Assembly: GCA_028288445.1 (NCBI GenBank)
Contig: JAQBNT010000065.1
Coordinates: forward strand, 1-37,913
Direction of reading: 5' to 3'
DNA from: Hymenobacter sp.
GTDB taxonomy: Bacteria; Bacteroidota; Bacteroidia; Cytophagales; Hymenobacteraceae
Length of the DNA stretch: 37,913 nucleotides
A program made the translations under genes and the position numbers. This document shows positions 6,286-30,885 of the stretch, piece after piece (positions within the stretch are counted from its first letter, which is position 1; every line of letters begins with the position of its first letter). The notes under the pieces are model-generated. The model saw nothing but the letters and a program-made list of their open reading frames with translations, ran no database searches and had not been told where the DNA came from.

Positions 6286-6601
6286 GGGAAAGGAAAACAG
6301 TGGGTAGCCTGCTGCAAAAGGAGTCCCAAGCTACGCCAGCCGAAGCAATTCTTTCCGGCAATCCAGTGGTTTAATAAGCACGGCCCCTGCGCCGATAATT
6401 GTCGACGGCCGTTAGTCATTGTCCCGGTTTTGCGCAGGGGTGAGCATTGCATCATGCGGCGTGACCCCAAAAGCAGGTGGCGCGCAGAGGCGGTGCCTGC
6501 TGGTTTAGCCCCAAGCCTCGGCAACAGCAGGCTTAATATTTATGTCGACAGCACCATGAAAGATTTGCCAATATCTGCCGTCTATTGGCGTATCTTTCGT
6601 C
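6286..6601. other. Divergent intergenic region between Shango and AbiE operons
   Basis: This 316-bp gap must hold the promoters for both operons. On the plus strand TATCTTTC (6591-6598) is one base from the TAnnTTTG element and TTTG lies at 6564-6567. However, the 23-base spacer is long and the element is almost on the AbiEi start codon, so it is doubtful. On the minus strand TAGCTTGG lies about 47 bases before the SngA start and matches imperfectly. A 9-bp inverted repeat (CCCCTGCGC at 6384-6392, GCGCAGGGG at 6432-6440) could be a binding site. No convincing gene is seen. Confidence 0.35.
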
Positions 6602-7378: not shown

Positions 7379-8496
7379 TTACCGCCACCTCCTTCACCCG
7401 CGAATGGATGCTGGACCACTGCCGGCAGCGCCCAGGCCTGGACCCTTCCATCCTGGAAAAAATGATTCTGGCCCTCACTCTGGTCGAGCGGCTGGTGGAA
7501 ACCGGGCTACCCTTTACCTTCAAGGGTGGCACCTGCCTGGTGCTCGTGCTCGGGCAGGCCCGGCGCTTTTCCGTGGACGTAGACCTGGTCACCACGGCCG
7601 AGCTCGACGACATCAACGCGGCGCTGACGCAGGTGTGCGCGCAGCCTCCTTTCCGCTCGTTCGAGTACGATGCCACCCGCAGCCACAAAGACGACGTGCC
7701 GCGCGGCCACTACTACGTGTACTACGACTCGGCCCTGGACCAGCAGCTGCTGGCTAAGCACCCGCAGCGGGCTATCGCCATCGACCTGCTCTTCGAGGAA
7801 CACAACTACCCGCGGGTGCTGCAGCTGCCGGTGGCCTCCCCATTCCTGCACCAGGAAGGCGAGCCGCTGCTCGTGGCCGCGCCCAGCGTTGAATCCATCG
7901 CCGGCGATAAGCTCACGGCCTTTGCTCCGCGTACCACCGGCATCCTCTACGGCAAGGGCAAGGAGTTGGAAATCATCAAGCAACTCTTCGACGTGGGCGT
8001 GCTCTTCGACCAAGTGCAGGACGTGGCGACGGTAGCCGAGTCATTCGCGGCCACCGTGGCCAAGGAGCTGCGCTACCGCCACCTGAGCGCCACCAGCGCG
8101 GCGGATGTGCTGGTGGACGCCCTGCAAACGGCTTTGCTGCTGGCCCAGATGAAGCTCAATCGGGCGCCGGCCAAGGAGCTGGCCCCGGCCGAGCTGCGCC
8201 GCGGCATTGCCGGCTTCCGCAATTTCGTCATCGACGGGGCCTTCCGTGAAGACCAAGCGGTGGCGGCGGCCGCCCGGGTGGCTTACCTGGCGGCGCGGTT
8301 GCTCACCGAGGACCACAGCGCCCTACCCCGGCCGATACCTGGTGCCGACCCACGCGATTTCTTCGTGCCGCATGCTGACTTTAACTACCTCAACAAGCTG
8401 CGCACCGTGCCCGGGGATGCGCTTTTCTACTGGCACCATACCGTTGCCTTGCTGGAAAGCCATAAGAAATTGGCGTGGCTATCAGCACCAAACTAA
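7375..8496 (+). CDS. Type IV TA toxin, AbiEii/AbiGii nucleotidyltransferase family
   Basis: A 373-residue nucleotidyltransferase-like toxin. Motif I is FKGGTCLVL followed by RRFSVDVDLV, giving the GGT loop (51-53) and the metal-binding aspartates D68 and D70. A third acidic position is likely in AIDLLFEE (D137). SIAGDKLTAF (174-183) and QLFDVGVLFD (203-212) are the later family motifs, with the conserved lysine K179. Members such as MenT and AbiEii transfer nucleotides to tRNA or other targets and stop growth during phage infection. All visible active-site residues are present, so the toxin should be functional. It overlaps its antitoxin gene by four bases. The actual substrate cannot be read from sequence. 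Confidence 0.88.
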   Translation: MITATSFTREWMLDHCRQRPGLDPSILEKMILALTLVERLVETGLPFTFKGGTCLVLVLGQARRFSVDVDLVTTAELDDINAALTQVCAQPPFRSFEYDATRSHKDDVPRGHYYVYYDSALDQQLLAKHPQRAIAIDLLFEEHNYPRVLQLPVASPFLHQEGEPLLVAAPSVESIAGDKLTAFAPRTTGILYGKGKELEIIKQLFDVGVLFDQVQDVATVAESFAATVAKELRYRHLSATSAADVLVDALQTALLLAQMKLNRAPAKELAPAELRRGIAGFRNFVIDGAFREDQAVAAAARVAYLAARLLTEDHSALPRPIPGADPRDFFVPHADFNYLNKLRTVPGDALFYWHHTVALLESHKKLAWLSAPN

Positions 8497-8564
8497 TCCG
8501 TTGTTAAGCAGGCCGTCCCGTCGACAGGCTGCTATCTGCGAAACGCCAATCTTAAGCTTTGACA

Positions 8565-9671
8565 GTGTCTTTCTACACCTTCACTGAGCTACACGAAGCG
8601 CTGGACAACTACGCAAAAATCTATGCGCTGGAGCACGTGGCCTTCTGTCCAGCGGAGTCAATGAAAAGGAAGCTCAAGCGGCAAGCCGAGCGAGTATGCC
8701 GTTTTTGTGGCTTGCGGAAACCCCAAACCAAGTTCAGCAGCATTCCCCACGTCATTCCGGAATTACTGGGCAATAAGTACCTGATTTCCGATTTCGAATG
8801 CGATGCCTGCAACACACATTTTTCAACTCTGGAAAACGATTTAGCCAATTATTTGGGGGCCACCAGGGCGTTTAATCAGGTGCCGGCAAAGGACAAGGTC
8901 CCCATCTTTACTTCGCTGGGCGGGCAGGTCGTGGTTAAGAAAGAAGATTTTTACGGCGTCGAGAACAGCACGAAAATCGTCCGCAACAGTGCGGATGATG
9001 ACAGTTTTACTTTCAATTTGGAAACGGGTGACTGCGAGATTAAGTACCTCAAGCAGCCTTACACGCCCCTGAAGGTGTACAAGGCGCTGTTAAAAATCGC
9101 CATGTCGGTCATGCCCGAACAGCACGTGGGCGACTATGCGGAGTTGCTGTGCTTACTGCTGGTGGACGAGCACAACATCTTAGCCAGATATGCCAACGGG
9201 GTAATCGTGCACGAACTGCCCATTGCCTATGCCCTGCCCAGATGCCACGTTGACCACCGAATGGCGACTGACGTGAAAGCCTGTACCCATATGTTTTCGC
9301 TTTATTTCCAAAACTTTGCCTTCGAGCTGCCAATTCCGCTGCACCGCCTGGATGTCGCTGAAGGAATCTATGAAGACAGCAGTTTTCTCTGGTACACGCG
9401 GCCGCCTCTATTCCTGGAGAAACCTGATGATGCCTTGCTTGAAGGCTACCGCCGGGAAGTAAAAGACCTGTCTGGCACTGACGTGAAGAGAGAACAGGAA
9501 CACATGACATTTAACATGGCCGTAGATGCATTCAAACACACGCAAGTGTATGACCCTGCCACCGGAGAAATGAAGGATTCTGACGGCATGCTACCCAACA
9601 TTGTGGGGCTCTATGTCGTCCGCGGGGACGAGCGGCCGGATTTCCCATTAAGGCCAATTGATTCGAAGTAA
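8565..9671 (+). CDS. HNH endonuclease-like protein, orphan in defence island
   Basis: A protein of about 368 residues with an HNH-type zinc-associated core near the N-terminus (about 45-90): CRFCG, then IPHVIPELLGN, then ECDACNTHFSTLEN. The two CxxC pairs and the His before IPELLGN match HNH_5-like nucleases, so DNA cleavage is plausible. The remaining 280 residues show no domain I recognise. No ATG lies at the 5' end: GTG at 8565 is chosen, TTG at 8559 is possible, and ATG at 8661 would start just before the core. The gene is visibly AT-richer than its neighbours, which suggests separate acquisition. It stands 68 bases after the AbiEii gene and may share its transcript. Function in phage or plasmid defence is inferred from location. 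Confidence 0.65.
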   Translation: MSFYTFTELHEALDNYAKIYALEHVAFCPAESMKRKLKRQAERVCRFCGLRKPQTKFSSIPHVIPELLGNKYLISDFECDACNTHFSTLENDLANYLGATRAFNQVPAKDKVPIFTSLGGQVVVKKEDFYGVENSTKIVRNSADDDSFTFNLETGDCEIKYLKQPYTPLKVYKALLKIAMSVMPEQHVGDYAELLCLLLVDEHNILARYANGVIVHELPIAYALPRCHVDHRMATDVKACTHMFSLYFQNFAFELPIPLHRLDVAEGIYEDSSFLWYTRPPLFLEKPDDALLEGYRREVKDLSGTDVKREQEHMTFNMAVDAFKHTQVYDPATGEMKDSDGMLPNIVGLYVVRGDERPDFPLRPIDSK

Positions 9672-10310
9672 AGAAGACAATAATGGCCTTGGTTAAAAGT
9701 TTGGTCCAAAAGTCGCATTTGCCAATCCCTAAACCCTCCACCGCAAGCACTATCGGTTTCCATAGCTCTAGACTCTTAGACCGGCTCAGAAACCATGGTT
9801 CAACTACTAATAAGCTAACCTATTGGCCCTATTTTATTGTTGTGCATCAATTACCTAATAGACGATGGAGCCTAGCCCAGTACTAGGTCCCGTATGGTGT
9901 GCCTTTCTGGGCCCACTGCCGCATAGCCAATGCGCGTTGACACGTCAGCTTAATAGGCGTCCGTTCAACTTTGTACCAACCTCTTAATCAAAGCCAGCAA
10001 TTAAACCTCACCTACATCAGCCCCCGGCTGCGCCCGCAGGATGCTCTACCACTGCGAGAGCCGATAAGCACGGCATTTTTGACAAGGAGGGCAATTGCCG
10101 CACCACTGTCCCAACGGATTGGTGTGCGGCCGGACCGTCGAGCCCCTTTTGGTGCGAGGCGTTTAAGGTTAGGGTAATACCTAATTATATCCTCCTTTGT
10201 GTTTGATGATGCACTTGGCTGCAACGCCAGGTTTTCGTTGCCAGTCTGGAGTTGTGCCTTTTTGTTCGCGCACGGGCGGGCAATTGGGGTAACGCACTAA
10301 AAGCAACCTG
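9672..10310. other. Gene-free, AT-richer spacer at the edge of the defence island
   Basis: This 639-bp stretch has only short ORFs without recognisable content. Two small structures can be seen. One is a hairpin at 10043-10061, which on the minus strand is GCTCT, then CGCAGTGGT, then AGAGC; it mimics a tRNA D-arm but no T-arm or acceptor stem accompanies it. The other is TTAGG/CCTAA at 10169-10184 with a six-base loop. The lower GC suggests decayed or imported DNA. It may contain remnants of an integration site, but no att repeat or integrase is visible. Confidence 0.4.
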
Positions 10311-11429
10311 CTAACCCATCACCAGCGCACCCATACGGGTTTGCCAATACGCTTCCGACAGATAGCGAAATTCACTCGTGTAGAAGAGCTTCCGACTGCG
10401 TTGATTGGCTTCAAAGACCCGGTTTACCTGGGCCTGGTAGTTCTCGAATGCCAAGGTTTCCTGGTGCGGCGCAGCTAGTATGCGAATAATGGTTTCTGCA
10501 CCCTTGATGCCACTGTATAAGGCGAAGAAAATCCCTTGCGAAGAGATTGGGTCGAAGGCGAGGGCCGCGTCGCCCACGGCCAGCAGTCCAGCTGTAGCCG
10601 CCCGTGGTAGACGGGCTACACTTGCATCCATGCCCTTGATTTCCATGGGCTCAGCCGGGCTTGCGGCATAAGGCAGGATGCCAGTAGCATCAAACGCTGC
10701 AAAAAAGGCCGTCGGGTTTTTGAGGTGCGCCGCCACAGCGGCCGGCAGCCCATGAAAGCAGATAACCCGCCGACCGGTCGGTAAGCGGGCCGTGTACCAC
10801 CAGCCCGTCGGCACCGATTTGATGCGGGTCGTGCGGTCATGGTCGTGCGTTGCGCTCGGCACCCAGCTCACTGCCGCCATTTGGGTATCGAGCTGCTCGC
10901 GCGCCAGGTGCTGCCGGCGGCACACGTAAGCCCGGCGCCCGGTGGCATCAATGAGCCAGGCAGTGCGAATAGCCTTCGTATCCCCGGCATGCTTGAGCTG
11001 CACCAGCCATTCGGCGGTTGCTGCCCTGCTCAATTCGTTGACCTGAGCGGCGTAGCAGGGCACGCCAGCTGCACCGGCATGCCGGTGCAGGGCGGCATCA
11101 AACGCGGCCCGGTTGAGGTGCCAACCGCCCCCTTCCGGATTGGCCAGCGCTGACTGGTACGTCCACTGCTCGCTGCCCCAGGCCGAGGCATTGGCCGCGC
11201 AGGCGTGGTAGTCCGCCGGAGCCAACAGGTTGCCCAGCCCCGCAATGCCCAGCTGGTGCAGCAGGCGGCTGGCCGCGCCCGGGAGCGACTCCCCTACTTT
11301 GGGGCCAGGCGTTGGGTTCTCATCCACCAGGCACACGCGCCGCCCGGCCCGGTGCAGCATCAGAGCGGCGGCGCAGCCCGCCGGGCCGGCGCCGGCAATC
11401 ACCACCTCGTAGCGCGGAAAATCCTCCAC
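10311..11429 (-). CDS. LodB/GoxB-like FAD-dependent oxidoreductase, CTQ maturation factor
   Basis: A 372-residue flavoprotein of the tryptophan-halogenase/monooxygenase-like group. It has an N-terminal FAD Rossmann motif (VVIAGAGPAGCAAAL, about 9-23) and the second FAD motif LAVGDAALAFDPISSQG (about 282-298). Proteins of this type (LodB, GoxB) are encoded beside LodA/GoxA oxidases and are needed to build their cysteine tryptophylquinone cofactor. The gene lies directly behind the LodA-domain gene, and its GTG start shares a base with that gene's TAG stop (TAGTG), implying coupled translation. Family plus context make a maturation role likely. An independent halogenase or hydroxylase is the alternative; the halogenase WxWxIP motif is not seen. 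Confidence 0.8.
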   Translation of the reverse strand: MEDFPRYEVVIAGAGPAGCAAALMLHRAGRRVCLVDENPTPGPKVGESLPGAASRLLHQLGIAGLGNLLAPADYHACAANASAWGSEQWTYQSALANPEGGGWHLNRAAFDAALHRHAGAAGVPCYAAQVNELSRAATAEWLVQLKHAGDTKAIRTAWLIDATGRRAYVCRRQHLAREQLDTQMAAVSWVPSATHDHDRTTRIKSVPTGWWYTARLPTGRRVICFHGLPAAVAAHLKNPTAFFAAFDATGILPYAASPAEPMEIKGMDASVARLPRAATAGLLAVGDAALAFDPISSQGIFFALYSGIKGAETIIRILAAPHQETLAFENYQAQVNRVFEANQRSRKLFYTSEFRYLSEAYWQTRMGALVMG

Positions 11430-14400
11430 TAGCGGCCGCGGCGCTTGATGGTGTCGAACTCGTTGCGCTGCTCTTCGCTGGCCCAGCCGGCTTCGGCCAG
11501 GCGCTGGTCGTAGAACCCCAGCTGGTTGAAGGCCTTGCGGAATAACAGCTTGTCCTTTTCCAGCTCCGCGCGTTTCACTTCGCTCAGGTTTTCGACGTAC
11601 AGGTGTTCCGGCAGCCAGTCCAGGTCGGCGGGACGGGGCTTGGCTTCCAGGATGCCCATTTCGCTGAAGTAGCTAATCATGTACATCATCTGGTCGGGCG
11701 CGGACAGCTGGGACGGCAGCTGCCGCAGCCAGCTGGGCCGGGTCTGGAAGGCTGCAATGCGGATTTCCATCGGTTGCTTCGCGTCGCACAGGGTCTGGTA
11801 ATCGGCTTCGGTCAGCACCTGGTTGGGCACCCGGGCGGGCCAGAAGGTGGGCAGGTAGGGGTCGTACTCGAACTCGTAGCCCGAACGGCAATAAGCCGTG
11901 TCCCCTTGCCAGGGCAGGGCCATCCAGCGGGTAAGGCTCCCGGGGCTTTGCCCGTACAGCGGCCCGTTAATAGCCAGCACGTTGGCATTGTTGAGCGTGG
12001 CGCCGTAGGCCGGGTCGCTCAGGCCCTCCTCGCACTGGCGGATGCGGTAAGGCGCGCGGTAGAGCGAGGGGTTGCGCATGGGCCAGGTCAGCTCGGCCCC
12101 GGGGTGGAAGGCATCGGCCAGGCAGAAGTGCATCGCCGCGCGGTCCAGCATTTCGGGCTGCTGCGCCAGGGGCACGTCGTCCAGCTTCCGGGGCGTGGGG
12201 CGCTGCGGCTCATAATCATTGATAAACAACCCGTTTACCCAGTTGGTCAGCACGTAATCGTACATGGCCGGCAGGCGCAGGTAGGTAGTGGGCGCGGGCG
12301 GCAGCGTGGGGTCGGGGTTGGTGTAGCCGTAGGCGTCGCCGTAGCTCCAGGGCCAAGCCGCCATGTCGGCGGTTTGGCCGTTGGTGGGCCGGAAGCTGTT
12401 GTACACCGTGCGCCGCAGCTCCACGTACGGGTCGGGGTACACGCTGGTGTCCTGCGGCACGTAGGCCAGCTTTTTCAGGAATTCCGGGTCGGCGAAGTTC
12501 ATCGGCGCGCCGGCCCCGAAGTTGGCCAGATAGCCTTTGTTCACCCACTGCAGCTCGTTTAGGCGCGCCAGAATGGGCTGCACGTGCTCGGTAAAGGACA
12601 GCTCCTGGGGCACGGGCAGCAGGCCCGCCTGCATGTACACGCTGCGCAGCAAATCGTCCATCGTGCGCCAGCCGATGATGTCGGGCGCGAAGTTGGGCGG
12701 GGCCGTGGCCACCCAGGCCGGGTCGGCATCAAAGTCGGTGTTGCCGATGGTCACCTTGGCGTGCACCGGGCCGTCGGCCACGTCGTCGTACCAACCGTCG
12801 GCGTTGTTGAAGCTGTCCGGGTTGAGCGGGTTATAAATAGGCGTATTGGCCGGGCTGGCCGATACCCCAAAGCCGGGCAGCACCAGCAGGCGGCCGGCCT
12901 CGTCGGTGCGCAGCTCACCCAGCGTCACGGGCGTGCCCTGGAAGTTACCGCTCATCTCGTAACTCGAATCGTTCATGTTCACGCCCATGATGGTCATCTT
13001 GCCCGGGTCGATGGCCAGCGCCGCGCGGGCGCTGCCGCTCACGCCGGCGTTGCGCAGCGGCACGGTCAGGGCCACGGTGGCCGGAATGTCCATCGCCGCG
13101 TTAAACTGGTACCACGCGGCCTTCTTGTTGGCCAGGTGCACTGTCCACTCGATGCTGGCGTTGGCCGCCTGCTGAATCTCGGCCACCACGTGGCCAAACC
13201 GGTCGTAGCCGTACACCCGGAAGCGGGCCGCCTGGCGCTTGATGGCCCCGCCCGCGTCGCGGGTCGAGCCGAAGGCCGTGGGCTCGGGCGTCATCACCTC
13301 CGGCCCGATGTAGTAGCCCTCGGCGCTGTTGCCCACCCGCGCCAGGCCAATGCCCGGATGAATCCGCACGTGGGTGATGCGCTGAATTTGCTCGTCGGTG
13401 AGGGGTTGGGCCACTGGCTGCGCGTCCAAACCAGCCGCTGCCTTGTGGTGCGGAAACGGGCACACCGGGTTTTTAATCGCCGGCTCGCCGGGCGCGGTAG
13501 GCTCGGTCACGGGTTGGCCGTTTTGCTCGCGGCGGTAGTTGGCGCTGGTCTGGTATACGCTCACCCGGGCCTCGGCCACGCTGCCCACGGGTTGGTTGGC
13601 CAGCGGCACGCGGCCGATGTTGAACGCCAGCCAGTCGCCGTAGGTGGCTTGTTCCGGGGTGGTAATGTCCTGCTGGGGCAGGGCGATGGTGGCCACCGTT
13701 ACGGGCACGGCCAGCTTCTCGTCCCACACCACGGTGGCCCGGTCCAGCGGAAAATGCTCGTCGATGTACTCCTGGCCCAACGAAGGGTCGGTGGGCCGGG
13801 GTTGAAGGTAGAGGTCCAGGGTGACGGGGCCGGCGGCCAGGCGCCCGGCCAGGTCCTTGCCCAGAAAATTGGGGTCGTTGATGTTGACGTCCCCGGCAAA
13901 TGTGGACGTGCCGGGGCGCAGGATGTATTTGCAAAACAGCTTTTCTCCCAGCTGAAACGGCACCACGCTCCAGAGCGAGGTTTCCAGCACCGAGCGGATG
14001 GGCTTCTCCATGTTGTTGAGCAGCTCGGTTGTGTTGGGCGCGTTCTGCTGAATCCAGTCGTCGCCCCAGCCTTCCAGGCTGGCCTTGGTGAAGTTGCACA
14101 TATCCCGGGCCGTGTCCACGAAAAAGAACGGCACGTTCTGGAACAGGAAGTCGGCGGTGTTGGCCCCGTCGTCGCTCACGAGCTTGGTACCAGGCACGTC
14201 GAATACTTTAATACCCAGGCCAATGGTGCTGAGCCAGTCGGGGCGTCCGTCGGCCAGGTCCGACGAGTAGCGCACGTACACCGGGTGCCGCCCGGCGGTA
14301 GCAAACATCCCTTGCTTTAGCTCCTCGGGGATGGTGTCCAGAATGGTAAAATCCCCCTTGATGATGCCGTGGGTGCGCAAAAACACCGGCCGCCGCACGG

Positions 14401-14629
14401 GGCACTGGCCCTGCTCTTCCACCCGCTTTTTCTGCACCAGGTCGCAGAACATATGGCGCAGGCACTCGATGGGGTTCTCGCAGGTACAGGCCGTGTTGAG
14501 GTGGCCGCCTTCTTTGGCAATGCTTTTCATGGGGCAGAAAAAAGTGTTCTTTTTTGGCTGGCAAGCTGGGGGCAATAACGCCGAAATGCTGACTAGCGGG
14601 CCCTGCCCAGCCAGCCTGCTAAAGGTCAT
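11429..14629 (-). CDS. Catalase-like domain fused to LodA/GoxA-type CTQ amino-acid oxidase
   Basis: A 1066-residue two-domain protein. Residues about 45-375 resemble the short catalase-like family: RTHGIIKGDF carries a candidate distal His (H88), followed by YVRYSSD, GLGIKVFDVPG, DFLFQNVPFFF, LWSVVPFQLGEKLFCKY and VATIALPQQD. Residues about 415-1040 match LodA/GoxA oxidases: VRIHPGIGLARVGNS, EWTVHLANKKAAWYQF, GWYDDVADGPV, FHPGAELTW, LPWQGD and YLPTFWPARVPNQVL. C836 and W907 are the likely cross-linked CTQ pair. Such oxidases deaminate lysine, glycine or other amines and release H2O2. ATG at 14629 gives the longest form; ATG at 14530 (residue 34) begins just before the first domain and is equally credible. 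A standard catalase proximal Tyr is not evident. Substrate is unknown. Confidence 0.82.
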   Translation of the reverse strand: MTFSRLAGQGPLVSISALLPPACQPKKNTFFCPMKSIAKEGGHLNTACTCENPIECLRHMFCDLVQKKRVEEQGQCPVRRPVFLRTHGIIKGDFTILDTIPEELKQGMFATAGRHPVYVRYSSDLADGRPDWLSTIGLGIKVFDVPGTKLVSDDGANTADFLFQNVPFFFVDTARDMCNFTKASLEGWGDDWIQQNAPNTTELLNNMEKPIRSVLETSLWSVVPFQLGEKLFCKYILRPGTSTFAGDVNINDPNFLGKDLAGRLAAGPVTLDLYLQPRPTDPSLGQEYIDEHFPLDRATVVWDEKLAVPVTVATIALPQQDITTPEQATYGDWLAFNIGRVPLANQPVGSVAEARVSVYQTSANYRREQNGQPVTEPTAPGEPAIKNPVCPFPHHKAAAGLDAQPVAQPLTDEQIQRITHVRIHPGIGLARVGNSAEGYYIGPEVMTPEPTAFGSTRDAGGAIKRQAARFRVYGYDRFGHVVAEIQQAANASIEWTVHLANKKAAWYQFNAAMDIPATVALTVPLRNAGVSGSARAALAIDPGKMTIMGVNMNDSSYEMSGNFQGTPVTLGELRTDEAGRLLVLPGFGVSASPANTPIYNPLNPDSFNNADGWYDDVADGPVHAKVTIGNTDFDADPAWVATAPPNFAPDIIGWRTMDDLLRSVYMQAGLLPVPQELSFTEHVQPILARLNELQWVNKGYLANFGAGAPMNFADPEFLKKLAYVPQDTSVYPDPYVELRRTVYNSFRPTNGQTADMAAWPWSYGDAYGYTNPDPTLPPAPTTYLRLPAMYDYVLTNWVNGLFINDYEPQRPTPRKLDDVPLAQQPEMLDRAAMHFCLADAFHPGAELTWPMRNPSLYRAPYRIRQCEEGLSDPAYGATLNNANVLAINGPLYGQSPGSLTRWMALPWQGDTAYCRSGYEFEYDPYLPTFWPARVPNQVLTEADYQTLCDAKQPMEIRIAAFQTRPSWLRQLPSQLSAPDQMMYMISYFSEMGILEAKPRPADLDWLPEHLYVENLSEVKRAELEKDKLLFRKAFNQLGFYDQRLAEAGWASEEQRNEFDTIKRRGR

Positions 14630-14834
14630 GTTTGCGATGCAATAGTCGTGGTTCCTGCACCAATATGCACAGGTATAAATACGTGATTTGAAATACCAGT
14701 ATTTCTACGCTATTTCTGCGGAGCTGCGGGCCGTCTCTTTGTCGTCATGTAAATGCGCTTCGCCCGGTGGACAATTGCGGAAGAATCCGACAAGCCACCC
14801 GGGCACAGCGCAAATAACCCCAAGCTCCGGTCGC
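14630..14834. promoter_or_regulatory. Divergent promoter region of the redox cluster
   Basis: This gap separates the CTQ-oxidase operon (minus) from the GMC oxidoreductase operon (plus), so it should hold both promoters. No exact TAnnTTTG element is found on either strand. An in-frame TTG at 14688 would extend the GMC protein by 49 residues, but that extension looks unlike protein. The region is taken as noncoding. Confidence 0.4.
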
Positions 14835-16637
14835 ATGAAAACATTTTCCTCCAGCCCCAATCTCGCCTTCGGCTATCCTACCCCCGGGCCGCAGTACCCC
14901 ACGCCCCAAAAGGTGATGGACCACATCTTCTTTTTGTCGGAAGCGGATTGGAAACATGCCCGGGAGCAAGAGCAGTTTGATTACATCATCATTGGCAGCG
15001 GGTTCTGCTCGCTGGCGTTCGCGGAAAGAATTCTGGCTAAAACGCCGATGGCCAAAATACTGATTCTGGAGCGGGGGCCGTTTTTCCTGCCCGAGCATTT
15101 TCAGAACCTGCCCCTGCCTTATCAGCATACGCTGGGCGGCCTGTCGGAAACCTTCCCCTGGACGCTGTCCCGCCAGACGGCGGCCCAGCCGGCGGGCAAT
15201 ATTCAGTTTCAACACGGCATGGTGCCGTTTTTTGGCGGGCGGAGCATCATGTGGAGCGCTTGGTGCCCGCGGCCCACACAGGAGGAAATGCAGTACTGGC
15301 CCAAGGAAACCATTGCAGCCGCCCACGCCCACTTCGATTCGGCCGAGAAACTGCTGAACGTGGTGCCCGCCGATAAAATCGACCAGGATTTGGACCCTAC
15401 GCAACTGCAGTTCGTGGCCAAGCAGCGCCCGGTGTACAAGGTGATGCAGCACCAGCTGCAAGCCATGCTCAAGGCCAACCTGAACAAAATCCCGTCGGCG
15501 ACGCGGATGATGGCGGCCCCGCTGGCGGTGGGGGCCAGCGAGCAGGAAGGCATCGATTTTGCCAAATTCTCGACGCCGGCCGTGCTACTGGATTTGGCCA
15601 GCAAACAAGCCGACCTGTCGGCCAAGCACCAGGGCAGCCCCCTGAAAATTGCGGGCGAGTGCGTGGTCAATCTGATTTATCAGCAAGAAGGCGTGGCCAC
15701 GGCCTTGGACACGTCGCGCGGCGTGGTCAACATTGGCAACGCCAAGTTGATTCTGGCCATGGGCACCATTCCGCCCGCCACGCTGCTCATGAATTCCTTT
15801 CCGGGGCTGACCAAGGCCGGCGAACGGTTCACGGCCCACTTTATCACGTCCGTGGTTGCCCGCATTCCCCGCCGGGATTATGCGTTTGCCGACGACCTCG
15901 AAGAATTGGAGCTGGCCGCGATTTACCTGGCCGGCGCAAACGCCAAAAGCGGGATGCAGTACCATGTGCAGCTGTCGGTGCTGTCCGACCGCGACCCCCA
16001 GAAAAATGCCCGCAAAGCCGCCCGCTACATGCCCGACGTGGTGGCCACGGCTTCCCTGGCCCAACTGACCAGCTCCGAGGATTACCTGGTGTTTGTGTGC
16101 GCGGTGCTGGGAGAGCTGGACTTTAAAAACCCTGATAACTTCCTTCGCCTCAACGGGGCCGGCCACCCGACGATGAACGTGGACCTGCAGGCCCTGGCCA
16201 ATGAAAAGGACTTGCAAACCTGGGATACCATGGACGAAGGCACTTTTCATATGCTGGAGCAGGCCCTCTCGCCCCAGGGAAGCCAGCGCGTGGAATACTG
16301 GCACGGTGAACCCACGAAAGGAGGCTGGAGCACCACGGAAGGCACCTGGAGCAGCGAACAGCCCCCCATCCCGCTGCGGCGCGTCGGCGGCTTGGTGCAC
16401 GAGGGGTCGCTGCTGTGGATTGGGAAAGGCACGGAGGGCGTGGTCGGGCTCGACTACCGACCCAATGGAATAGAGAACGTGTACGTGACCGGTGGCGCCC
16501 TGTGGCCCGCGAGCGGCTCCTGGAACCCGACCATGACCATGGTGGCGCTCACCCAGGATTTGGCCGACCAGCTCTTGGCCGACACCGAATCTACTCCGGC
16601 CGCGGTGGGCCAGGTACTGGCCGCCACGCTTGCATAA
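14835..16637 (+). CDS. GMC-family FAD oxidoreductase
   Basis: A 600-residue FAD enzyme of the glucose-methanol-choline family. The dinucleotide-binding motif is DYIIIGSGFCSLAFAERIL (49-67), with ILERG at about 77-81 as the ribose-binding acid. FGGRSIMWSAWCPRP (about 137-151) matches the second GMC signature region. The C-terminus reads NVYVTGGALWPASGSWNPT then MTMVALTQDLADQ, the usual FAD/active-site segment. Such enzymes oxidise alcohols or sugars and many pass electrons to O2, giving H2O2. ATG at 14835 is chosen over an upstream TTG because similarity-like sequence starts there. It heads the plus-strand half of the redox cluster, 16 bases before the PAS-cupin gene. Substrate is not readable. 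Confidence 0.85.
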   Translation: MKTFSSSPNLAFGYPTPGPQYPTPQKVMDHIFFLSEADWKHAREQEQFDYIIIGSGFCSLAFAERILAKTPMAKILILERGPFFLPEHFQNLPLPYQHTLGGLSETFPWTLSRQTAAQPAGNIQFQHGMVPFFGGRSIMWSAWCPRPTQEEMQYWPKETIAAAHAHFDSAEKLLNVVPADKIDQDLDPTQLQFVAKQRPVYKVMQHQLQAMLKANLNKIPSATRMMAAPLAVGASEQEGIDFAKFSTPAVLLDLASKQADLSAKHQGSPLKIAGECVVNLIYQQEGVATALDTSRGVVNIGNAKLILAMGTIPPATLLMNSFPGLTKAGERFTAHFITSVVARIPRRDYAFADDLEELELAAIYLAGANAKSGMQYHVQLSVLSDRDPQKNARKAARYMPDVVATASLAQLTSSEDYLVFVCAVLGELDFKNPDNFLRLNGAGHPTMNVDLQALANEKDLQTWDTMDEGTFHMLEQALSPQGSQRVEYWHGEPTKGGWSTTEGTWSSEQPPIPLRRVGGLVHEGSLLWIGKGTEGVVGLDYRPNGIENVYVTGGALWPASGSWNPTMTMVALTQDLADQLLADTESTPAAVGQVLAATLA

Positions 16638-16653
16638 CTCTTGCAGTAGTTCC

Positions 16654-17598
16654 ATGGAAAATATCCGCGCAACCGCCGAAAAACCACTGCTCAGCGACCT
16701 GTTGCTGAAAACGGACCCGCCCATGTCAGTCGGTGATGTATTAAACCGCACCGACGGTGTCTATTTCTGCATAAAAAACAACGACTCTGTTTTTTTATGG
16801 GTGAACGAGAACTTCGCTCGGCTGGTGGGCCAGCGCCCGCAGGACCTCATTGGCACCCGCGATAGCCGGGCCGCCCACGTGGCCCACGACCAGCAGGTGA
16901 TGGCCAGCGGTGTCCCGTTGCTCAACTTCCACGAAACCATTCAGGTCCCGACGGAAAATGGCGCGATGGCCGATTTGGAAATAGTTACCCAGAAAGGCTT
17001 GTTGCGGAAAAAAGGCAGCACGGAAATCATCGGCATCACCGTCTGCTTTGCGAAGGCCTACCCCGATGCATCTAGGGAAGCCGACGACATTTGTAAACGC
17101 CTGCACCTGGTGCCAACCGGCATCGGCGGCTACCTGGCCCCCGGCCCCGCCGGTGATTTCACCCTTGAGGCGGGCGCGTTGCCGCCGCGTTTCAACGGGG
17201 CGCGGGGCATCTACTCGGCGAATTACTTCCTGTTAAAAGCGGGCGAATTCCTCCAGCTGCACTCCCTCAACCAGGACGAGCAGTGGTTTTTTCACCAAGG
17301 AAGTGCCCTGCGGCTACATGCCTTCTCCGCGCAGGGCATTTACTCGACAGTGACGCTGGGCAGCGACGTGGCGCAAGGCCAAGTCTTTCAAGCAGTGGCT
17401 CCTCATAGCCAGTGGTTTGGAGCCGAACTACTTGGCCCGGGCTACGCCCTGGTCAGCTGTAGCCTGGCGCCGGCCTGGAGCAAGGAGGACTCCGGCCTGC
17501 CGACTGCTGAGCAGGTTGAGCGGTTGAAAGATGCTTTTCCCGAACAAGCGGCCATCATCGAACTGCTCCGGCAAAAGCCTTTGAAAAATGGCGGCTAA
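16654..17598 (+). CDS. PAS domain-cupin_5 fusion protein
   Basis: A 314-residue protein from ATG 16654 (an in-frame ATG eight codons earlier is less likely). Residues about 20-120 look like a PAS sensor: GVYFCIKNNDSVFLWVNENF, then ARLVGQRPQDLIGTRDSRA, and ending near GITVCFAKAYPD. Residues about 130-295 match the cupin_5 (DUF985) family: LHLVPTGIGGYLAP, ANYFLLKAGEFLQLHSLNQD, EQWFFHQGSALRL, TLGSDVAQGQVFQAV, QWFGAEL and YALVSCSLAPAWS. The His/Glu pairs of the cupin core (LHSLNQDEQWFFH) may bind a metal. No output domain such as a kinase or HTH is present, so the PAS may sense a cofactor or redox state for the cupin itself. It is co-directional with the GMC gene, 16 bases away. Confidence 0.75.
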   Translation: MENIRATAEKPLLSDLLLKTDPPMSVGDVLNRTDGVYFCIKNNDSVFLWVNENFARLVGQRPQDLIGTRDSRAAHVAHDQQVMASGVPLLNFHETIQVPTENGAMADLEIVTQKGLLRKKGSTEIIGITVCFAKAYPDASREADDICKRLHLVPTGIGGYLAPGPAGDFTLEAGALPPRFNGARGIYSANYFLLKAGEFLQLHSLNQDEQWFFHQGSALRLHAFSAQGIYSTVTLGSDVAQGQVFQAVAPHSQWFGAELLGPGYALVSCSLAPAWSKEDSGLPTAEQVERLKDAFPEQAAIIELLRQKPLKNGG

Positions 17599-17618
17599 CT
17601 GCCCCAGTTAGGAACTGG
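17595..17618 (+). promoter_or_regulatory. Two overlapping, mutually exclusive hairpins at the PAS-cupin stop
   Basis: CTAACTG-CCC-CAGTTAG (17595-17611) is a perfect 7-bp stem that includes the TAA stop. CCAGTT-AGG-AACTGG (17604-17618) is a perfect 6-bp stem that reuses the same CAGTT bases. Only one can form at a time, as in attenuators. No U-tract follows, so a simple intrinsic terminator is unlikely. Confidence 0.35.
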
Positions 17619-17753
17619 CCTTACGGCTCCTGATGGATAGTCATTGCGCACTTTCCTCATTCCGGTTGCAGAGCCTCCGGCATTGCTTCCTAACCCAACA
17701 GCTGTCAAAAAGAGATTGCCCTAAACGATTCGGAAATAACCATAACCATCATC

Positions 17754-18878
17754 ATGGCAGAAGCTGAAAACGAGAATCCGTTAGCCTCCCTGAACCTCGG
17801 GGGCCTGACGAAACTGGAGGAGCAAACAAAGGGAAAAGGGGTTCAGCGGGCCGAGCAGGGCGCCTCCTTTGAACCCATCTCCCTGAAAAGTGTGCGCGCC
17901 GGGGTGGCAGACGCGGTGGCTCCGAAAGCCGCGGCCGGACCGGTCGAGCTCACGCTCGGTCCGCTGACGGATTTTCCGGGTACCTGGGAAGGCAGCGGGT
18001 TCAACCTGATTGAAATACCCAACCGCAACCAGGACCTCCATGTGCACCCCCCGGCGGCTGACAAGTTCAAGCTCGTCCTGAACAACACCTTCGAAAAGCT
18101 AACCATCACCGCGATTCCCGGCGGAATCATCAACCGGGGCAACGTGCAGGGCGACATTGAATACCTCTCGCTGCACTACCTGCAGCAGGTGGACGATGTG
18201 AACGTGCCGGTGGGCACCTCGGGGCGAGGCATTCACCTCGAAACCGGCCTCTTCCTAAACCTGCCGGCCGGCACCGACCCGGCCGTGCAGCCTTCGGTGG
18301 CGCGGCTGGGCTCCATTCCCCACGGCGACTCGCTGCTGGCGCAGGGCACCTTCACCCCGACCCCACTGCAGAATCAGGGGCCGAAATTTGACTTCAACCG
18401 GGCTGACCCAACGCCATTTACCGTGGTAGCTGGCAAACGGGTGAACATCACCGATGAACACTACCTCTCCCTGCTAAAAAACCCGGTAAAGGTGCCGGAT
18501 GGTATTCCCCAAGCGGCCGTGATGGACCCCACGCTCATCCTTGAAGAAGCGCTCAAGGACGTGCAAGTGCTGGACATGACGGTGGTGTTTCTGGATGCAA
18601 ACCCGATTGCGGGGGTGAGTAATCCCAACGCCCTTGAGAATGCCGGGGGCATCACCAACATTCCGTTCGTGACTAAAAATGCGAACGCAACCACCTTCTC
18701 GGCGATATTCTGGCTGATGACCGTGCAGAAGCCCGACAAGACGACGACCAAGCTGCTGCAATACACGCAGACTGTTGTGCTGGATTTCCCGGTTTTCGGG
18801 GCCGACCCCGGCACGGTGGTCGACGTCAAGTGGCCTCACATTTCGGTGGCAACGCTAGAGCTCCAGCCCACTACTTGA
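17754..18878 (+). CDS. Putative heme-binding beta-barrel (nitrobindin-like) protein
   Basis: A 374-residue protein without signal peptide. The segment LTDFPGTWEGSGFNLIEIP (about 70-88) resembles the GTWxGxG opening of nitrobindin/THAP4-type heme barrels. Further conserved-looking blocks are ITAIPGGIINRGNVQGDI, LHYLQQVDDV, GIHLETGLFLNLPAG and IPHGDSLLAQGTF. I recall these from a bacterial family annotated as heme-binding or hypothetical, often next to oxidoreductase genes; I could not verify this. The first 60 residues look disordered. The family is weakly supported and the role unknown. In this cluster a heme barrel could handle peroxide or an oxidised intermediate, which is inference. Confidence 0.55.
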   Translation: MAEAENENPLASLNLGGLTKLEEQTKGKGVQRAEQGASFEPISLKSVRAGVADAVAPKAAAGPVELTLGPLTDFPGTWEGSGFNLIEIPNRNQDLHVHPPAADKFKLVLNNTFEKLTITAIPGGIINRGNVQGDIEYLSLHYLQQVDDVNVPVGTSGRGIHLETGLFLNLPAGTDPAVQPSVARLGSIPHGDSLLAQGTFTPTPLQNQGPKFDFNRADPTPFTVVAGKRVNITDEHYLSLLKNPVKVPDGIPQAAVMDPTLILEEALKDVQVLDMTVVFLDANPIAGVSNPNALENAGGITNIPFVTKNANATTFSAIFWLMTVQKPDKTTTKLLQYTQTVVLDFPVFGADPGTVVDVKWPHISVATLELQPTT

Positions 18879-18938
18879 CGCGGAGTTCGCCGCATTTGAA
18901 AGCACCTGGTTTTTATCTAATTACTCTGCTTGAAAGCA

Positions 18939-20846
18939 ATGGCTCTCCCCCCTACCCCCACGCCACGCTGGTCGCGCGATTACCTGTTCGATATTCTGCG
19001 TGAACTGGGCATTCACCACATTTTCGGGGTGCCGGGCACCAACGAGATTCCGCTGATTGACGGGACTTCCTACCCCGAAAACGAGGTCACCTACATCGAG
19101 TGCCTGCACGAGAACATTGCCATTGGGGCCGCCATGGGCACGGCCCGCATGACCGGGCTGCCTGGCGTGCTGGTGGTGCACGTCACGCCGGGCATTGCGC
19201 ACAGCATCGGCAACCTGTTCAATGCCGCGCGCTCGCACATGCCGCTGGTGATTTTGTGCTGCCAGCAGCAGAACGAGTTGGTGACGCAGGAGCCGCTGCT
19301 AGCGTCCAACGTGGTCGACTTGGCCCGGCAGTATACCAAGTGGGCGCATGAGGTGCGCGCCGCCGAAGAGCTGCCGCTGGTGCTGCAACGCGCCTTCAAG
19401 GAGGCCATGGCCCCGCCCAACGGGCCGGTATTCGTCTCGATTCCGTGGGAATTCACCATGCGCCGCATCGGGGCCGATGACCGGGTGGCGGGCATTACGC
19501 GCATCTTGCCGCACTTCACCGGCGATGCGGCCGCCATTGCGCAGGCCGCCCAGGTGCTGGGCGAGTCCATTACGCCTCTGCTGGTGCTCGGCGACGCGGC
19601 CGGCTATGCCGATGCCTGGCCCGAGCTGCAGGAGCTGGCCGAACTGCTGGGCGCGCCCGTGTTACAACAAACGCTGAGCAGCGTGGCCAACTTTCCCAAT
19701 GACGACTACCACTGGCAGGGCGAGCTGCCCGGGGCGCAGGCCTCATTGCAAACCCTGTTCGGAGCGCACGACGTGGCCTTTTTGTGCGGTTTTGGGGCGC
19801 AGGCCCAAGTTACGGTGTTCAAATACTCGGACGGGCCGCTAATTCCGGCCAGCGTGCGGCAGATATACCTGACGAACAACACCTGGGACATCGGCAAGAA
19901 TTTCTACGGCGAGGCGGCCGTGTTCGGCGACATCAAAGCCACTCTGCCGCTGCTGCTGGCCCACCTGCGCCAGCACCCGCCCAAAGGCGCAGCGGCCCGC
20001 AACAAGGTGCTGCGCGAACAGGCACGGCTGCGCGCCCAAGCCTGGGTGGCCTACGAAAAACAGGCCCTAGAGCAGCCCACCGAAATCTGGGCCGTAACGC
20101 TGGCCGCCGCGCTGCGCGATGAAATAAAAAGCCGCCGGCTGGAGCGCCAGTTCGTGTACGTGCACGAAGCCATTTCGGACCCGGCTCCGTTTCAGTTTCT
20201 GCTGCCTTTTACCCGGGCAGCGGCAGCCCCGACCAGCTACTACTGCGTGGCTGGCGGCTCGCTGGGCTGGTCGATGCCCGCCTCGCTGGGCGTGCGGCTG
20301 GCGGGGCGCGGCTGGCAAGACATCGAGCCCAAGCTGGTGATAAACGCAGTGGGCGACGGCTCAGCCTTGTTCTACCCACAGGCGTGGTGGACGGCCAGCC
20401 ACCGCAAGCTGGGCGTGCTCTACATCATCACCAACAACTTCGAGTACCACACCCTGCAAATTGGCCTGGGCCAGGTGACGGCCGCCTACGAGGCCGACCC
20501 GGCCTATGGCTGGCACCCAAAAACCACCGACCCCGAATACCTGCGTCTGGAACGCCCGAAAATTGATTTCGTGGCCCTGGCCCGCGCCTTTGGTGTGCCG
20601 GCCGGGGAGGTGGTGACGCACGCCCACGACGTGGCTGCCGCCGTGGCCCGGGGCATCAGCCAGGTGCTCAAAACCGGCGAGTCGTTCGTGCTCGACGTGC
20701 ACATCACGCCCAGTTCGCTGCCTGCCCAGCCGCAGGCCTCGCAACGGTACACGGACCAGCCCCCACTGCACACGCCGGCCCCAACCAAAGGCTTGCTACG
20801 CGCCGCGCCACCCGCCCCGCACGCGGGCGTCCAGGTGATTCCGTAG
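18939..20846 (+). CDS. ThDP-dependent enzyme (acetolactate synthase / benzoylformate decarboxylase superfamily)
   Basis: A 635-residue thiamine-diphosphate enzyme with the three-domain layout of the ALS/BFD/PDC superfamily. The N-terminal PYR domain has the catalytic-type Glu in CLHENIAIGAAMG (E58) and VTPGIAHSIGNLFNAARS. The C-terminal PP domain has the ThDP/Mg motif GDGS (472-475) ending in NN (499-500). Enzymes of this group decarboxylate 2-oxo acids or make C-C bonds from them. A 2-oxo acid is what the neighbouring amine oxidase would deliver, so the two may act in sequence. Residues after about 590 are a Pro/Ala-rich tail not needed for catalysis. ATG 18939 is preferred to TTG 18930. Substrate is unknown. 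Confidence 0.85.
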   Translation: MALPPTPTPRWSRDYLFDILRELGIHHIFGVPGTNEIPLIDGTSYPENEVTYIECLHENIAIGAAMGTARMTGLPGVLVVHVTPGIAHSIGNLFNAARSHMPLVILCCQQQNELVTQEPLLASNVVDLARQYTKWAHEVRAAEELPLVLQRAFKEAMAPPNGPVFVSIPWEFTMRRIGADDRVAGITRILPHFTGDAAAIAQAAQVLGESITPLLVLGDAAGYADAWPELQELAELLGAPVLQQTLSSVANFPNDDYHWQGELPGAQASLQTLFGAHDVAFLCGFGAQAQVTVFKYSDGPLIPASVRQIYLTNNTWDIGKNFYGEAAVFGDIKATLPLLLAHLRQHPPKGAAARNKVLREQARLRAQAWVAYEKQALEQPTEIWAVTLAAALRDEIKSRRLERQFVYVHEAISDPAPFQFLLPFTRAAAAPTSYYCVAGGSLGWSMPASLGVRLAGRGWQDIEPKLVINAVGDGSALFYPQAWWTASHRKLGVLYIITNNFEYHTLQIGLGQVTAAYEADPAYGWHPKTTDPEYLRLERPKIDFVALARAFGVPAGEVVTHAHDVAAAVARGISQVLKTGESFVLDVHITPSSLPAQPQASQRYTDQPPLHTPAPTKGLLRAAPPAPHAGVQVIP

Positions 20847-20860
20847 TGGCTCACGGCTTC

Positions 20861-20886
20861 CCCGGCCCGCCTGGCGGCAATGGGCC
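20861..20886. other. GC-rich inverted repeat after the ThDP gene
   Basis: GGCCC (20864-20868) pairs with GGGCC (20882-20886), and CCGCC-T-GGCGG lies inside. It follows the stop codon by about 15 bases, so it could be a weak terminator or RNA 3' end. No T-run follows on the plus strand. The rest of the 208-bp gap before the amine oxidase gene shows nothing clear. Confidence 0.2.
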
Positions 20887-21054
20887 CCGGGCGGAGCAAA
20901 AAAGGCTATTACCAACAAGCATAATATGCTGGCTACCTGAAGAAAAACAGCTGGCGCCAACGATTCGAAGAAAAACCGTTTTCAAATCTGCCGCAGGGTC
21001 GACTCCTGCCCTGGGCTTTGCCTGCTATTAACCACTTCATCTCCCTCAGTCCTT

Positions 21055-22719
21055 ATGAAAAACGAAGAAGTCGACATTGCCATCGTGGGTGGCGGCGTAT
21101 CGGGCGTGTACTGCGCCTGGCGGTTGAAAAAGGCGCATCCCACCCTTAAAATCGTGGTGCTGGAAGGCAGCGGCGGGGTGGGCGGCCGGCTGCTGTCGGT
21201 GCGGCCGCCGGGTATCAACAACATGGTGGCCGAGTTGGGCGGCATGCGCATTTTGCCGGCCGTGCAGCCCTTGGTGGCGAGACTGATTGACCAACTCAAC
21301 CGGCTGCTGCCCAAAGCCCGGAAGATTGCGATGTACGACTTCCCAGTCGACGAGCCCCAGAATCTGGCCTACCTGCGCGGCGAATACCTGCGCCTGGCCG
21401 ATTTCACCACCAGCCCTGATAAGGTACCTTACCACCTGAACTGGCTGGAGCGGGGCCAGACGCCGGGCGGCCTCATCGTGGCAGCCATTGAGCAACTGGT
21501 GCCGGGCATCACCGACCCCAACTTGACTAGCGAGGAGCGGCAGCAAATGGCCCAGGCGGCCACGTTTGCGGGCCGGCCGCTCCACGAGCAGGGCTTCTGG
21601 AACGTGCTGCTGCGCATCATCAGCCCCGAGGCATTTCAGCTGGGCGTGGATGCTGGGGGTTACAGCTCGACGCTGAGCAACTGGAACGCGGCCGATGCCA
21701 TTCCGTGGTTTCTGGCTGATTTTGGGGTTACGCCCAAGTACCGGGCATTTTGCGAAGGTTTCCAACAGGTGCCGCTGGCGCTGGCCGACCTGTTTGAGCA
21801 AGCCAAGGGCGACCTGCGCATGGCGCACAAGGTGCGCGGCGTGAGCTGGCACGACGGCGCTTACGACCTGCCCTGGGTGAGCCACGATGGCACGCCCCAG
21901 CAGCAGGAAGGCCAGTTGCGGGCCAAGAAGGTGATTCTGGCCATGCCCCGCCGCGCCCTCGACCTGCTGGCCCCCAGCAGCCCGCCGCTGCAAGCTTGCC
22001 AGGCCTTGATTGCCAGCGTGACGCCCCGACCATTATTCAAGCTCTTCACCACTTACACCAGCCCCTGGTGGCGCAACGCGGGTTATACCAGCCGTGAGGA
22101 CGGCCAGAGCACCTACGTGCCCGTGGAGCAGGGCCGCACTGTGACCGACCTGCCCGTGCGCCAGACCTATTACTGGCCCACCATCGAGGGCAAAGCCGCT
22201 ACGACCGGCCCGGCCATGCTGATGGCCAGCTACGACGACGGCAACAGCGTGGGCTATTGGGACGGCCTGCGCCCGCGCCGCCGCCAGGCCTGGCAGCAGG
22301 GCCAGGTGGTGGCGCAGCCCGAAGTGCCCTTCGTGACGGCCACTGTGGCTCCAATGGCGGCCAGCGCCAAGGCGGCCCCGGTCACCGATCCCGAGCGCCA
22401 ATGGGAAACCTACCAGGCCTCGGCCGATATGGTAGCCGAGGTGGCCCGGCAGCTGAGCATTATGCACAATCTACCTTACTCGCCTGAGGTGCAGCAAGCG
22501 GCTTTCCGCGACTGGGGCGACGACCCGTTTGGCGGCGGCTGGAACAGCTGGAACATCGGCGTAAAAAGCTGGGAGGTGAAGCACCAGATTGTGCAGCCCA
22601 ACTCCGCCCAGCCGCTCTACATCTGCGGCGAGGCCTATTCCGATGCCCAGGGCTGGGTGGAAGGCGCGCTGCAAACCGCCGACTACGTGCTGGCCAAATT
22701 CGGGCTCGACGCCCTCTAA
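21055..22719 (+). CDS. FAD-dependent amine / L-amino-acid oxidase (RebO/VioA/tryptophan-monooxygenase-like)
   Basis: A 554-residue flavin amine oxidase. The FAD motif is VDIAIVGGGVSGVYCAW (6-22), followed by VVLEGSGGVGGRLLSV (about 34-49) and the substrate-side AELGGMRI. The C-terminus has the second FAD signature LYICGEAYSDAQGWVEGAL. This pattern fits L-amino-acid oxidases such as RebO, VioA and tryptophan 2-monooxygenase, which turn an amino acid into an imino or keto acid plus H2O2 (or an amide plus CO2). No signal peptide is present, so it acts in the cytosol. It is the last gene of the plus-strand cluster. It could supply a 2-oxo acid to the ThDP enzyme upstream. The family is secure; the preferred amino acid is not. 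Confidence 0.85.
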   Translation: MKNEEVDIAIVGGGVSGVYCAWRLKKAHPTLKIVVLEGSGGVGGRLLSVRPPGINNMVAELGGMRILPAVQPLVARLIDQLNRLLPKARKIAMYDFPVDEPQNLAYLRGEYLRLADFTTSPDKVPYHLNWLERGQTPGGLIVAAIEQLVPGITDPNLTSEERQQMAQAATFAGRPLHEQGFWNVLLRIISPEAFQLGVDAGGYSSTLSNWNAADAIPWFLADFGVTPKYRAFCEGFQQVPLALADLFEQAKGDLRMAHKVRGVSWHDGAYDLPWVSHDGTPQQQEGQLRAKKVILAMPRRALDLLAPSSPPLQACQALIASVTPRPLFKLFTTYTSPWWRNAGYTSREDGQSTYVPVEQGRTVTDLPVRQTYYWPTIEGKAATTGPAMLMASYDDGNSVGYWDGLRPRRRQAWQQGQVVAQPEVPFVTATVAPMAASAKAAPVTDPERQWETYQASADMVAEVARQLSIMHNLPYSPEVQQAAFRDWGDDPFGGGWNSWNIGVKSWEVKHQIVQPNSAQPLYICGEAYSDAQGWVEGALQTADYVLAKFGLDAL

Positions 22720-30318: not shown

Positions 30319-30332
30319 GGCGGGTGCGGGGC

Positions 30333-30767: not shown

Positions 30768-30885
30768 TGAGTAGGCAAATGAAAGGAGGATAAACAATCG
30801 GGGGCTAAAAGTAAAGAAATAACTAGTATTTTCCCGCACAATTCGCCGGGCATCTACCTTATTTACAAATCCGGACGATTCGCTG
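30768..30885. promoter_or_regulatory. Shared divergent promoter region of the T2SS-like operons
   Basis: A 118-bp AT-rich spacer between the G-pseudopilin operon and the plus operon. On the minus strand TACTTTTA (30806-30813) is one base off the TAnnTTTG element, 39 bases from the pilin ATG. No good -33 match was found. An AGGAGG-type run (30785-30790) on the plus strand precedes no start codon. Confidence 0.35.

Follow-up and report, generated by a model that had tools for sequence, protein, structure and literature searches.

A gene on the Hymenobacter sp. contig JAQBNT010000065.1 encodes, in one reading frame, an N-terminal catalase-fold domain followed by an oxidase of the LodA/GoxA type, which belongs to the family dependent on cysteine tryptophylquinone (CTQ). 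In this protein, as in every other linked domain of its kind that we examined, the distal catalytic histidine of catalases is replaced by phenylalanine. The stretch analysed, hereafter the window, is the 37,913 nucleotides of that contig (assembly GCA_028288445.1, positions 1 to 37,913 of the forward strand). We consider the chances slightly better than even (about 0.55) that the oxidase is coupled to a catalase-fold heme domain that has been repurposed and is no longer a catalase. The architecture itself has been known since 2015; what the present alignments add is the missing catalytic His in every linked copy examined, which an earlier note on this DNA, made from the letters alone, did not report. 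If every linked domain lacks this residue, the obvious account of catalase-mediated self-protection fails, and the pairing would be a conserved case of a catalase fold rebuilt for another job beside a quinone oxidase.

The heme pocket of the linked domains

The pocket was read in an alignment of 19 fused domains (the window protein included, and two, L005 and L032, taken from broken copies), 3 split domains, 43 stand-alone relatives and two true catalases, one from the window's genome and the other KatE of E. coli. Catalase-fold domains that are fused to a LodA part or split from it but adjacent are together called linked (n = 22), and counts for stand-alone proteins refer to the 41 with a residue in the column. 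Repeat fetches were removed by hand, and the loci read were those returned by the searches. Residue numbers throughout are those of P0001, the 1066-residue open reading frame (ORF), unless the 1033-residue protein is named.

At the column of the distal catalytic His all 22 linked domains have Phe (F83 in the window protein), whereas the stand-alone proteins keep His. The column is well anchored because R80 (Arg in 21 of 21 linked domains with a residue and in 40 of 41 stand-alone proteins) and H87 (His in 22 of 22 and 35 of 41, respectively) are conserved around it. Additional blastp alignments gave Phe in a fused protein of Azospirillum ramasamyi (L156) and His in a stand-alone protein of Nostoc sp. 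HK-01 (L154). The linked domains are also uniform at D124, Q164, M177 and C178 (Table 1). N165 was considered as the distal Asn and rejected, as KatE numbering places the catalytic Asn column at Q164 and leaves N165 as a second Asn. On the heme ligand side, the columns of KatE R411 and Y415 are kept in all linked and all 41 stand-alone domains; in P0001 numbering, Y359, R355 and R366 are kept in the 22 linked domains, as is S167 (KatE numbering).

The same His-to-Phe change has been made in a true catalase, the subject of PDB entry 3hb6, titled 'Inactive mutant H54F of Proteus mirabilis catalase'. Profile offsets place Proteus H54 in the F83 column (position 49 corresponds to residue 54 in Proteus and to residue 75 in human catalase), a placement reached by arithmetic and not from a printed alignment. 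The column of D124 is presumably that of V111 in yeast catalase. In a review (PMC9687031), the distal His is described as essential to catalases, the HPII variant H128N as inactive, and the yeast variant V111A as having more peroxidatic activity. Elsewhere in its genome, the window's organism carries an ordinary catalase gene (PF00199, E = 8.2e-188).

Fold of the N-terminal domain

Single-sequence searches gave little: a Pfam scan found no catalase match in the N-terminal part, and phmmer against the PDB returned 3e4w at E = 0.0088 and the catalase 1m7s at E = 0.43. The Pfam catalase model matches 12 of 15 stand-alone relatives, at E values up to 0.1. The earlier note had seen a catalase-like domain by motif; its assignment to a y4iL-type catalase fold is settled by profile comparisons between alignments of 10 fused and split domains (A3) and of 15 stand-alone y4iL-like proteins (A2). 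These two align with each other in hhalign over 315 columns (probability 100, E = 3.6e-65). Against the PDB, A3 matches 3e4w (E = 4.1e-14), the catalase 4qol (E = 6.9e-8) and the allene oxide synthase 1u5u (E = 6.9e-5), and A2 matches 3e4w and many catalases. A tblastn match at E = 2e-22 leads to the catalase-like gene of plasmid pNGR234a (L038), taken to be y4iL. The stand-alone y4iL-like proteins share the fold and the proximal Tyr/Arg with the window domain. Foldseek, run on a poor AlphaFold2 model of the domain (mean predicted local distance difference test score, pLDDT, 45.7), lists catalases first (E = 8.7e-7; template modelling score 0.38 by query length), which lends weak support.

The catalase fold serves in non-catalase roles in the MAP catalase-related protein 3e4w, the coral allene oxide synthase 1u5u and the chanoclavine synthase EasC (9jdb). 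All three are only remotely similar to the window domain in sequence or fold, and none is fused to a CTQ oxidase.

Oxidase half and maturase

The C-terminal part matches LodA_N (residues 424-641, E = 2.9e-76) and LodA_C (residues 781-930, E = 5.2e-36), both above the Pfam cut-off, and by these matches belongs to the LodA/GoxA family of CTQ-dependent oxidases, as had been proposed; the presence of CTQ itself we infer. The NCBIfam models for GoxA (396.6 bits; equivalog cut-off 750) and LodA (179.9 bits; cut-off 600) are not reached, so that neither glycine nor lysine oxidase activity can be claimed. The window protein shares LodA_N/LodA_C, the Cys/Trp pair and a LodB-like maturase with LodA (lysine 6-oxidase) and with GoxA/PlGoxA (glycine oxidase), but it falls below their equivalog cut-offs and has the additional heme-type domain.

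The earlier note had named C836 and W907 as the CTQ pair, and this was wrong. In the alignment with LodA chain 3weu, which stops at C914, that residue falls on residue 516, and W930 aligns with a Trp of PlGoxA in the PDB comparison, which we take to be W697. In an alignment of 59 LodA parts (57 of them different; some represent one gene more than once or only in part), C914 and D910 are each conserved in 58 rows with one gap, and W930 is Trp in 57 with two gaps. C836 is Cys in only 46 of the 59, and W907, conserved as it is, is not the cofactor Trp. By these alignments the CTQ pair is C914/W930; C516 is given as the CTQ Cys of LodA in PMC4417212.

Directly downstream of the fusion gene lies a gene for a LodB-like protein dependent on flavin adenine dinucleotide (FAD), which matches the NCBIfam LodB model at E = 1.1e-59, under the equivalog cut-off; its ORF overlaps the stop codon of the fusion by one base. 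LodB is reported as the factor required for LodA (PMC4417212). The fused gene adjoins a maturase in L002-L012, L140 and L141, and five plasmid copies have next to it a gene annotated as an FAD oxidoreductase or halogenase.

Frame, distribution and co-divergence

The ORF at 11429-14629 on the minus strand runs through 1066 residues with no internal stop. Close relatives (L002, L003, L004 and L006) begin at M34, so translation probably starts there (position 14530), giving a protein of 1033 residues. A frame error or chimera joining two genes was considered and rejected, as the fusion is conserved in other genomes. Other Bacteroidota carry it, as do Alphaproteobacteria, and in three places the same parts occur as two adjacent genes. 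The single polypeptide described in the earlier note is thus borne out, its cofactor residues apart. Two of the split forms are from genomes of the window's order (L075 and L076), with genes for products of 342 and 645 aa lying 26 bases apart and then the maturase, in the order [catalase-like][LodA][LodB]; the third, from Sinorhizobium medicae (L033), has a broken LodA gene. Broken-looking copies of the fusion or split form were seen in L005 (a Spirosoma metagenome-assembled genome), L032 (an S. meliloti plasmid) and L033 (an S. medicae plasmid). The extreme N-terminus of the fusion is Cys-rich (window 14402-14488, minus strand), with Cys 15, 17, 23, 29 and 43 of the 1033-residue protein invariant in five aligned rows; in L006 one of these positions holds Gly, and distant fusions do not retain the pattern.

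In a tree of 65 catalase domains, computed with column 83 removed and two fragments dropped, the 22 linked domains form one clade (support 100/100). In a tree of 59 LodA parts, the 19 linked rows (17 fused, 2 split) all fall within one group of 24 (support 94/94, not starred, with several long branches). Pairwise identities of the two halves are closely correlated over 19 proteins (Mantel r = 0.986; none of 2000 permutations as high), and their means are similar (48.1% for the catalase part, 52.0% for the oxidase part), so that the heme part is held about as tightly as the oxidase and is not decaying. By these sequence comparisons the domain pair is early in origin and moves as a unit.

The fusion protein is patchily distributed. 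Full-length matches were found in 8 of 395 genomes of a phylum sample and in 2 of 390 of an order sample, which also held split pairs in 2 (the window's genome is counted in both samples). In two family samples they were found in 4 of 397 (f7) and 1 of 222 (f3), the latter sample further containing a broken copy and both of those split pairs. Two scans of viral contigs returned no relative of the fusion protein. The closest copies (73-81% identity) include named Flavobacteriaceae and Spirosoma records in whose loci the guanine-plus-cytosine fraction is 0.37-0.55, compared with 0.63 in the window, which suggests horizontal transfer of the fusion.

Table 1. Coordinates in the window of the fusion gene, its predicted domains and key residues, and adjoining genes (residues numbered as in P0001)
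Feature	Position	Strand	Remarks
Catalase-fold/LodA fusion gene	11429..14530	-	from probable start M34; 1033 aa; start by homology to L002, L003, L004, L006
y4iL-type catalase-fold domain	13490..14470	-	residues 54-380; profile matches, weak structural support
F83, distal catalytic His column (KatE H128)	14381..14383	-	Phe 22/22 linked; His 41/41 stand-alone; two fragments without a residue
D124, channel Val column (KatE V169)	14258..14260	-	Asp 22/22 linked; Asp 0/41 stand-alone
Q164, distal Asn column (KatE N201)	14138..14140	-	Gln 22/22 linked; neither Asn nor Gln in 41 stand-alone
M177-C178, channel Phe/Pro columns (KatE F214/P215)	14096..14101	-	Met, Cys 22/22 linked; 0/41 stand-alone for each
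Y359, proximal heme-ligand Tyr column (KatE Y415)	13553..13555	-	Tyr 22/22 linked, 41/41 stand-alone
LodA/GoxA CTQ oxidase part	11570..13372	-	residues 420-1020; PF17990, PF18417; NF038173 below cut-off; PDB 2ymw, 3weu, 6byw
C914, predicted Cys of CTQ pair	11888..11890	-	on LodA C516; Cys in 58/58 rows with a residue
W930, predicted Trp of CTQ pair	11840..11842	-	on PlGoxA Trp; Trp in 57/57 rows with a residue
LodB/GoxB-like FAD maturase	10311..11429	-	NF038171 E 1.1e-59, NF038174 E 4.3e-54, both below equivalog cut-off
Divergent five-gene run	14688..22719	+	GMC-like oxidoreductase, cupin/PAS protein, FMP-type heme-binding protein, thiamine pyrophosphate (TPP) enzyme, VioA-like FAD amine oxidase; neighbours with a possible functional link

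Discussion

Fusions of this kind have been listed before. Table 3 of a 2015 survey (Campillo-Brocal et al., PMC4417212) gives 21 proteins joining catalase (pfam00199/cd08152) to LodA, in group III and with the domain order and size range of the window protein; none is characterised, and they are reported as not clustering in one subgroup of the published LodA tree. The earlier note knew of no characterised protein of this layout, which has been in print, uncharacterised, since 2015. Two entries, Azospirillum lipoferum 4B (999 aa) and Azospirillum sp. B510 (1004 aa), agree in strain and length with our L030 and L031, and these are the two of the 21 that were compared here; their alignments with the window protein span both domains, and each carries Phe where catalases have the distal His. 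The other 19 include proteins of Ralstonia, Acinetobacter, Streptomyces and Massilia. The sections of the survey that were consulted do not mention the lost distal His/Asn. In our trees, the linked catalase domains form a single clade, whereas in the tree of LodA parts five unfused oxidases are interspersed with the linked ones. PMC4417212 was the only paper found in our literature search to describe the fusion, and no title or abstract start named a lost catalase His in such a fusion, nor a characterised fusion, in a search that left subscription journals mostly uncovered.

In the mechanism that we favour, CTQ would be made on C914 and W930 by the LodB-like neighbour, and the oxidase half would act as an amine or amino-acid oxidase, deaminating an amine and yielding H2O2, as is established for LodA and GoxA. 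The heme half, which we infer to bind heme, would retain its Tyr/Arg proximal site while its distal side is remodelled (Phe for His, Gln for Asn and, in the channel, Asp for Val and Met for Phe), and may consume the peroxide or the product of the oxidase; our leading guess is that H2O2 made on the spot drives a reaction of the peroxidase or peroxygenase type, in which D124 may be the acid-base group. Use of the peroxide for a second oxidation, one of the two readings in the earlier note, is thus possible. That the two domains are coupled, as the earlier note proposed, is supported by the conserved fusion, the existence of a split operon form and the tight co-divergence. It is also possible, and we put it forward tentatively, that the H-to-F catalase fold is a new heme oxygenation or rearrangement centre fed in cis by H2O2 or by an imine/keto product from the quinone site, with Phe/Gln in place of the distal His/Asn pair, Asp at the constriction of the channel and Met-Cys on its wall; if true, quinone deamination followed by heme oxidation would make a self-contained two-step enzyme in one chain. 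A repurposed domain is predicted to contain heme and to lack catalase activity, and a change of Y359 should reveal its role.

The explanation nearest to hand, and one of those offered in the earlier note, is that the N-terminal domain still disproportionates the H2O2 of the oxidase as a catalase in cis. The catalase fold and the proximal heme site are indeed kept, and such a domain makes sense beside a peroxide producer. However, all 22 linked domains have Phe for the distal His and Gln for the distal Asn, the same His-to-Phe change is titled inactive in 3hb6, and the genome has an ordinary catalase in trans; detoxification by the linked domain is thus unlikely on its residues, and we rate self-protection as improbable. 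Loss of both catalytic distal residues from a domain so tightly co-conserved with the oxidase would also suit a pseudoenzyme, in which the domain serves structure, oligomerisation, heme sensing or docking and catalyses nothing itself. We regard this as unlikely but worth keeping in mind, since the proximal heme residues kept in all 22 domains and the clade-specific invariant D124, Q164, M177 and C178 exceed the needs of a scaffold.

The heme domain might instead act in cis as a maturation factor that helps to oxidise or cross-link the CTQ precursor. MauG performs such maturation for tryptophan tryptophylquinone, and the pairing of the domain with oxidase and maturase is constant. Five unfused oxidases (L034, L035, L036, L037 and L077), however, keep the Cys/Trp pair and a maturase with no catalase-like gene in the 14-16 kb covered at each locus, and the reported required factor for LodA is LodB, which makes this role quite improbable. 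We give still less credence to electron transfer, in which the heme would accept electrons from reduced CTQ. CTQ and heme in one chain do resemble quinohemoprotein amine dehydrogenase, but the potential of a heme with a Tyr ligand should be low, and LodA and GoxA are oxidases. Quinohemoprotein amine dehydrogenase is named in the abstract of PMC7876137.

Several points weigh against a repurposed, coupled heme domain. The LodA group of 24 also holds the five unfused oxidases named above, and the heme domain is thus, by the tree, dispensable in some lineages. The 22 of 22 should be read as one event under constraint and not as 22, with several of the rows being near-copies. Within the pocket, N165 is replaced by Phe in two of the three split copies, and the distal Asn is also missing in stand-alone relatives, so that loss of the Asn is not specific to the fusion, whereas loss of the His is. 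The AlphaFold2 models, made from an alignment that was not deep, reached a pLDDT of 32.0 for the whole protein and 45.7 for the catalase domain, too low to fix the geometry of the pocket, the distance from D124 to the heme or any contact between the two active sites. Finally, no neighbour gene of the window except the maturase is conserved beside the fused copies compared, the wider loci adding no match, and conservation thus does not point to a substrate.

Other genes of the window and related loci

Apart from the maturase, the window's genes gave one weak match in L002-L012 (L006-L012 covering only about 6 kb), and no conserved cluster around the fusion was found there. The VioA-like FAD amine oxidase and the TPP enzyme of the divergent run are possible substrate hints, to be taken as leads only. 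The VioA-like gene (window 21055-22719, plus strand) is 71.5% identical to a gene of genome G614 (L077, 749-2401). About 5 kb from that gene is an unfused LodA belonging to the group of the fusion, and besides the window's genome G614 is the only one of 291 genomes with a match above 70%. This pairing with the LodA group is suggestive as a substrate lead. Also present at the G614 locus are a ferritin-like gene (PF12902) and a 633-aa gene that belongs to no known family. A violacein-type pathway was considered but is not claimed, the VioB/ferritin-like neighbours being too distant (best E = 0.00025 to VioB). In Spirosoma oryzae (L081, 4334-7456), a 663-aa gene without a Pfam family and a PF12902 ferritin-like gene stand directly upstream of the fusion, and the two share about 60% identity with their counterparts in L077.

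A second possible heme protein lies near the fusion, the 374-aa product of window 17754-18878 (plus strand), which matches the NCBIfam model 'heme_bind_FMP' at E = 6.6e-70 and 'peroxidase, FMP-type' below its cut-off. Among loci of unfused LodA, a DyP-type peroxidase gene is found about 2 kb upstream in Mycetohabitans (L040, 2214-3764), another heme peroxidase near an oxidase of the peroxide-making type. Directly upstream of the unfused LodA in L138 is a BBE-like FAD oxidase with a laminin-G-like domain (9518-12217; Pfam, L138 only), and L139 has at the same place a gene of similar length and start (5089-7770).

Elsewhere in the window, three genes at 948-6285 (minus strand) match SngC (E = 8.2e-210), SngB (E = 6.7e-166) and SngA (E = 1.2e-35) in PADLOC, which we take to be the Shango defence system; beside them, at 45-854, is a gene for a DEDDh exonuclease. 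An AbiEi/AbiEii toxin-antitoxin-like pair at 6602-8496 (plus strand) is followed by an HNH-type gene at 8559-9671. Type II secretion-like genes occupy 26338-34846 and comprise a secretin, a T2SSE ATPase, T2SSF and a prepilin-peptidase-like gene, the last below the Pfam cut-off.

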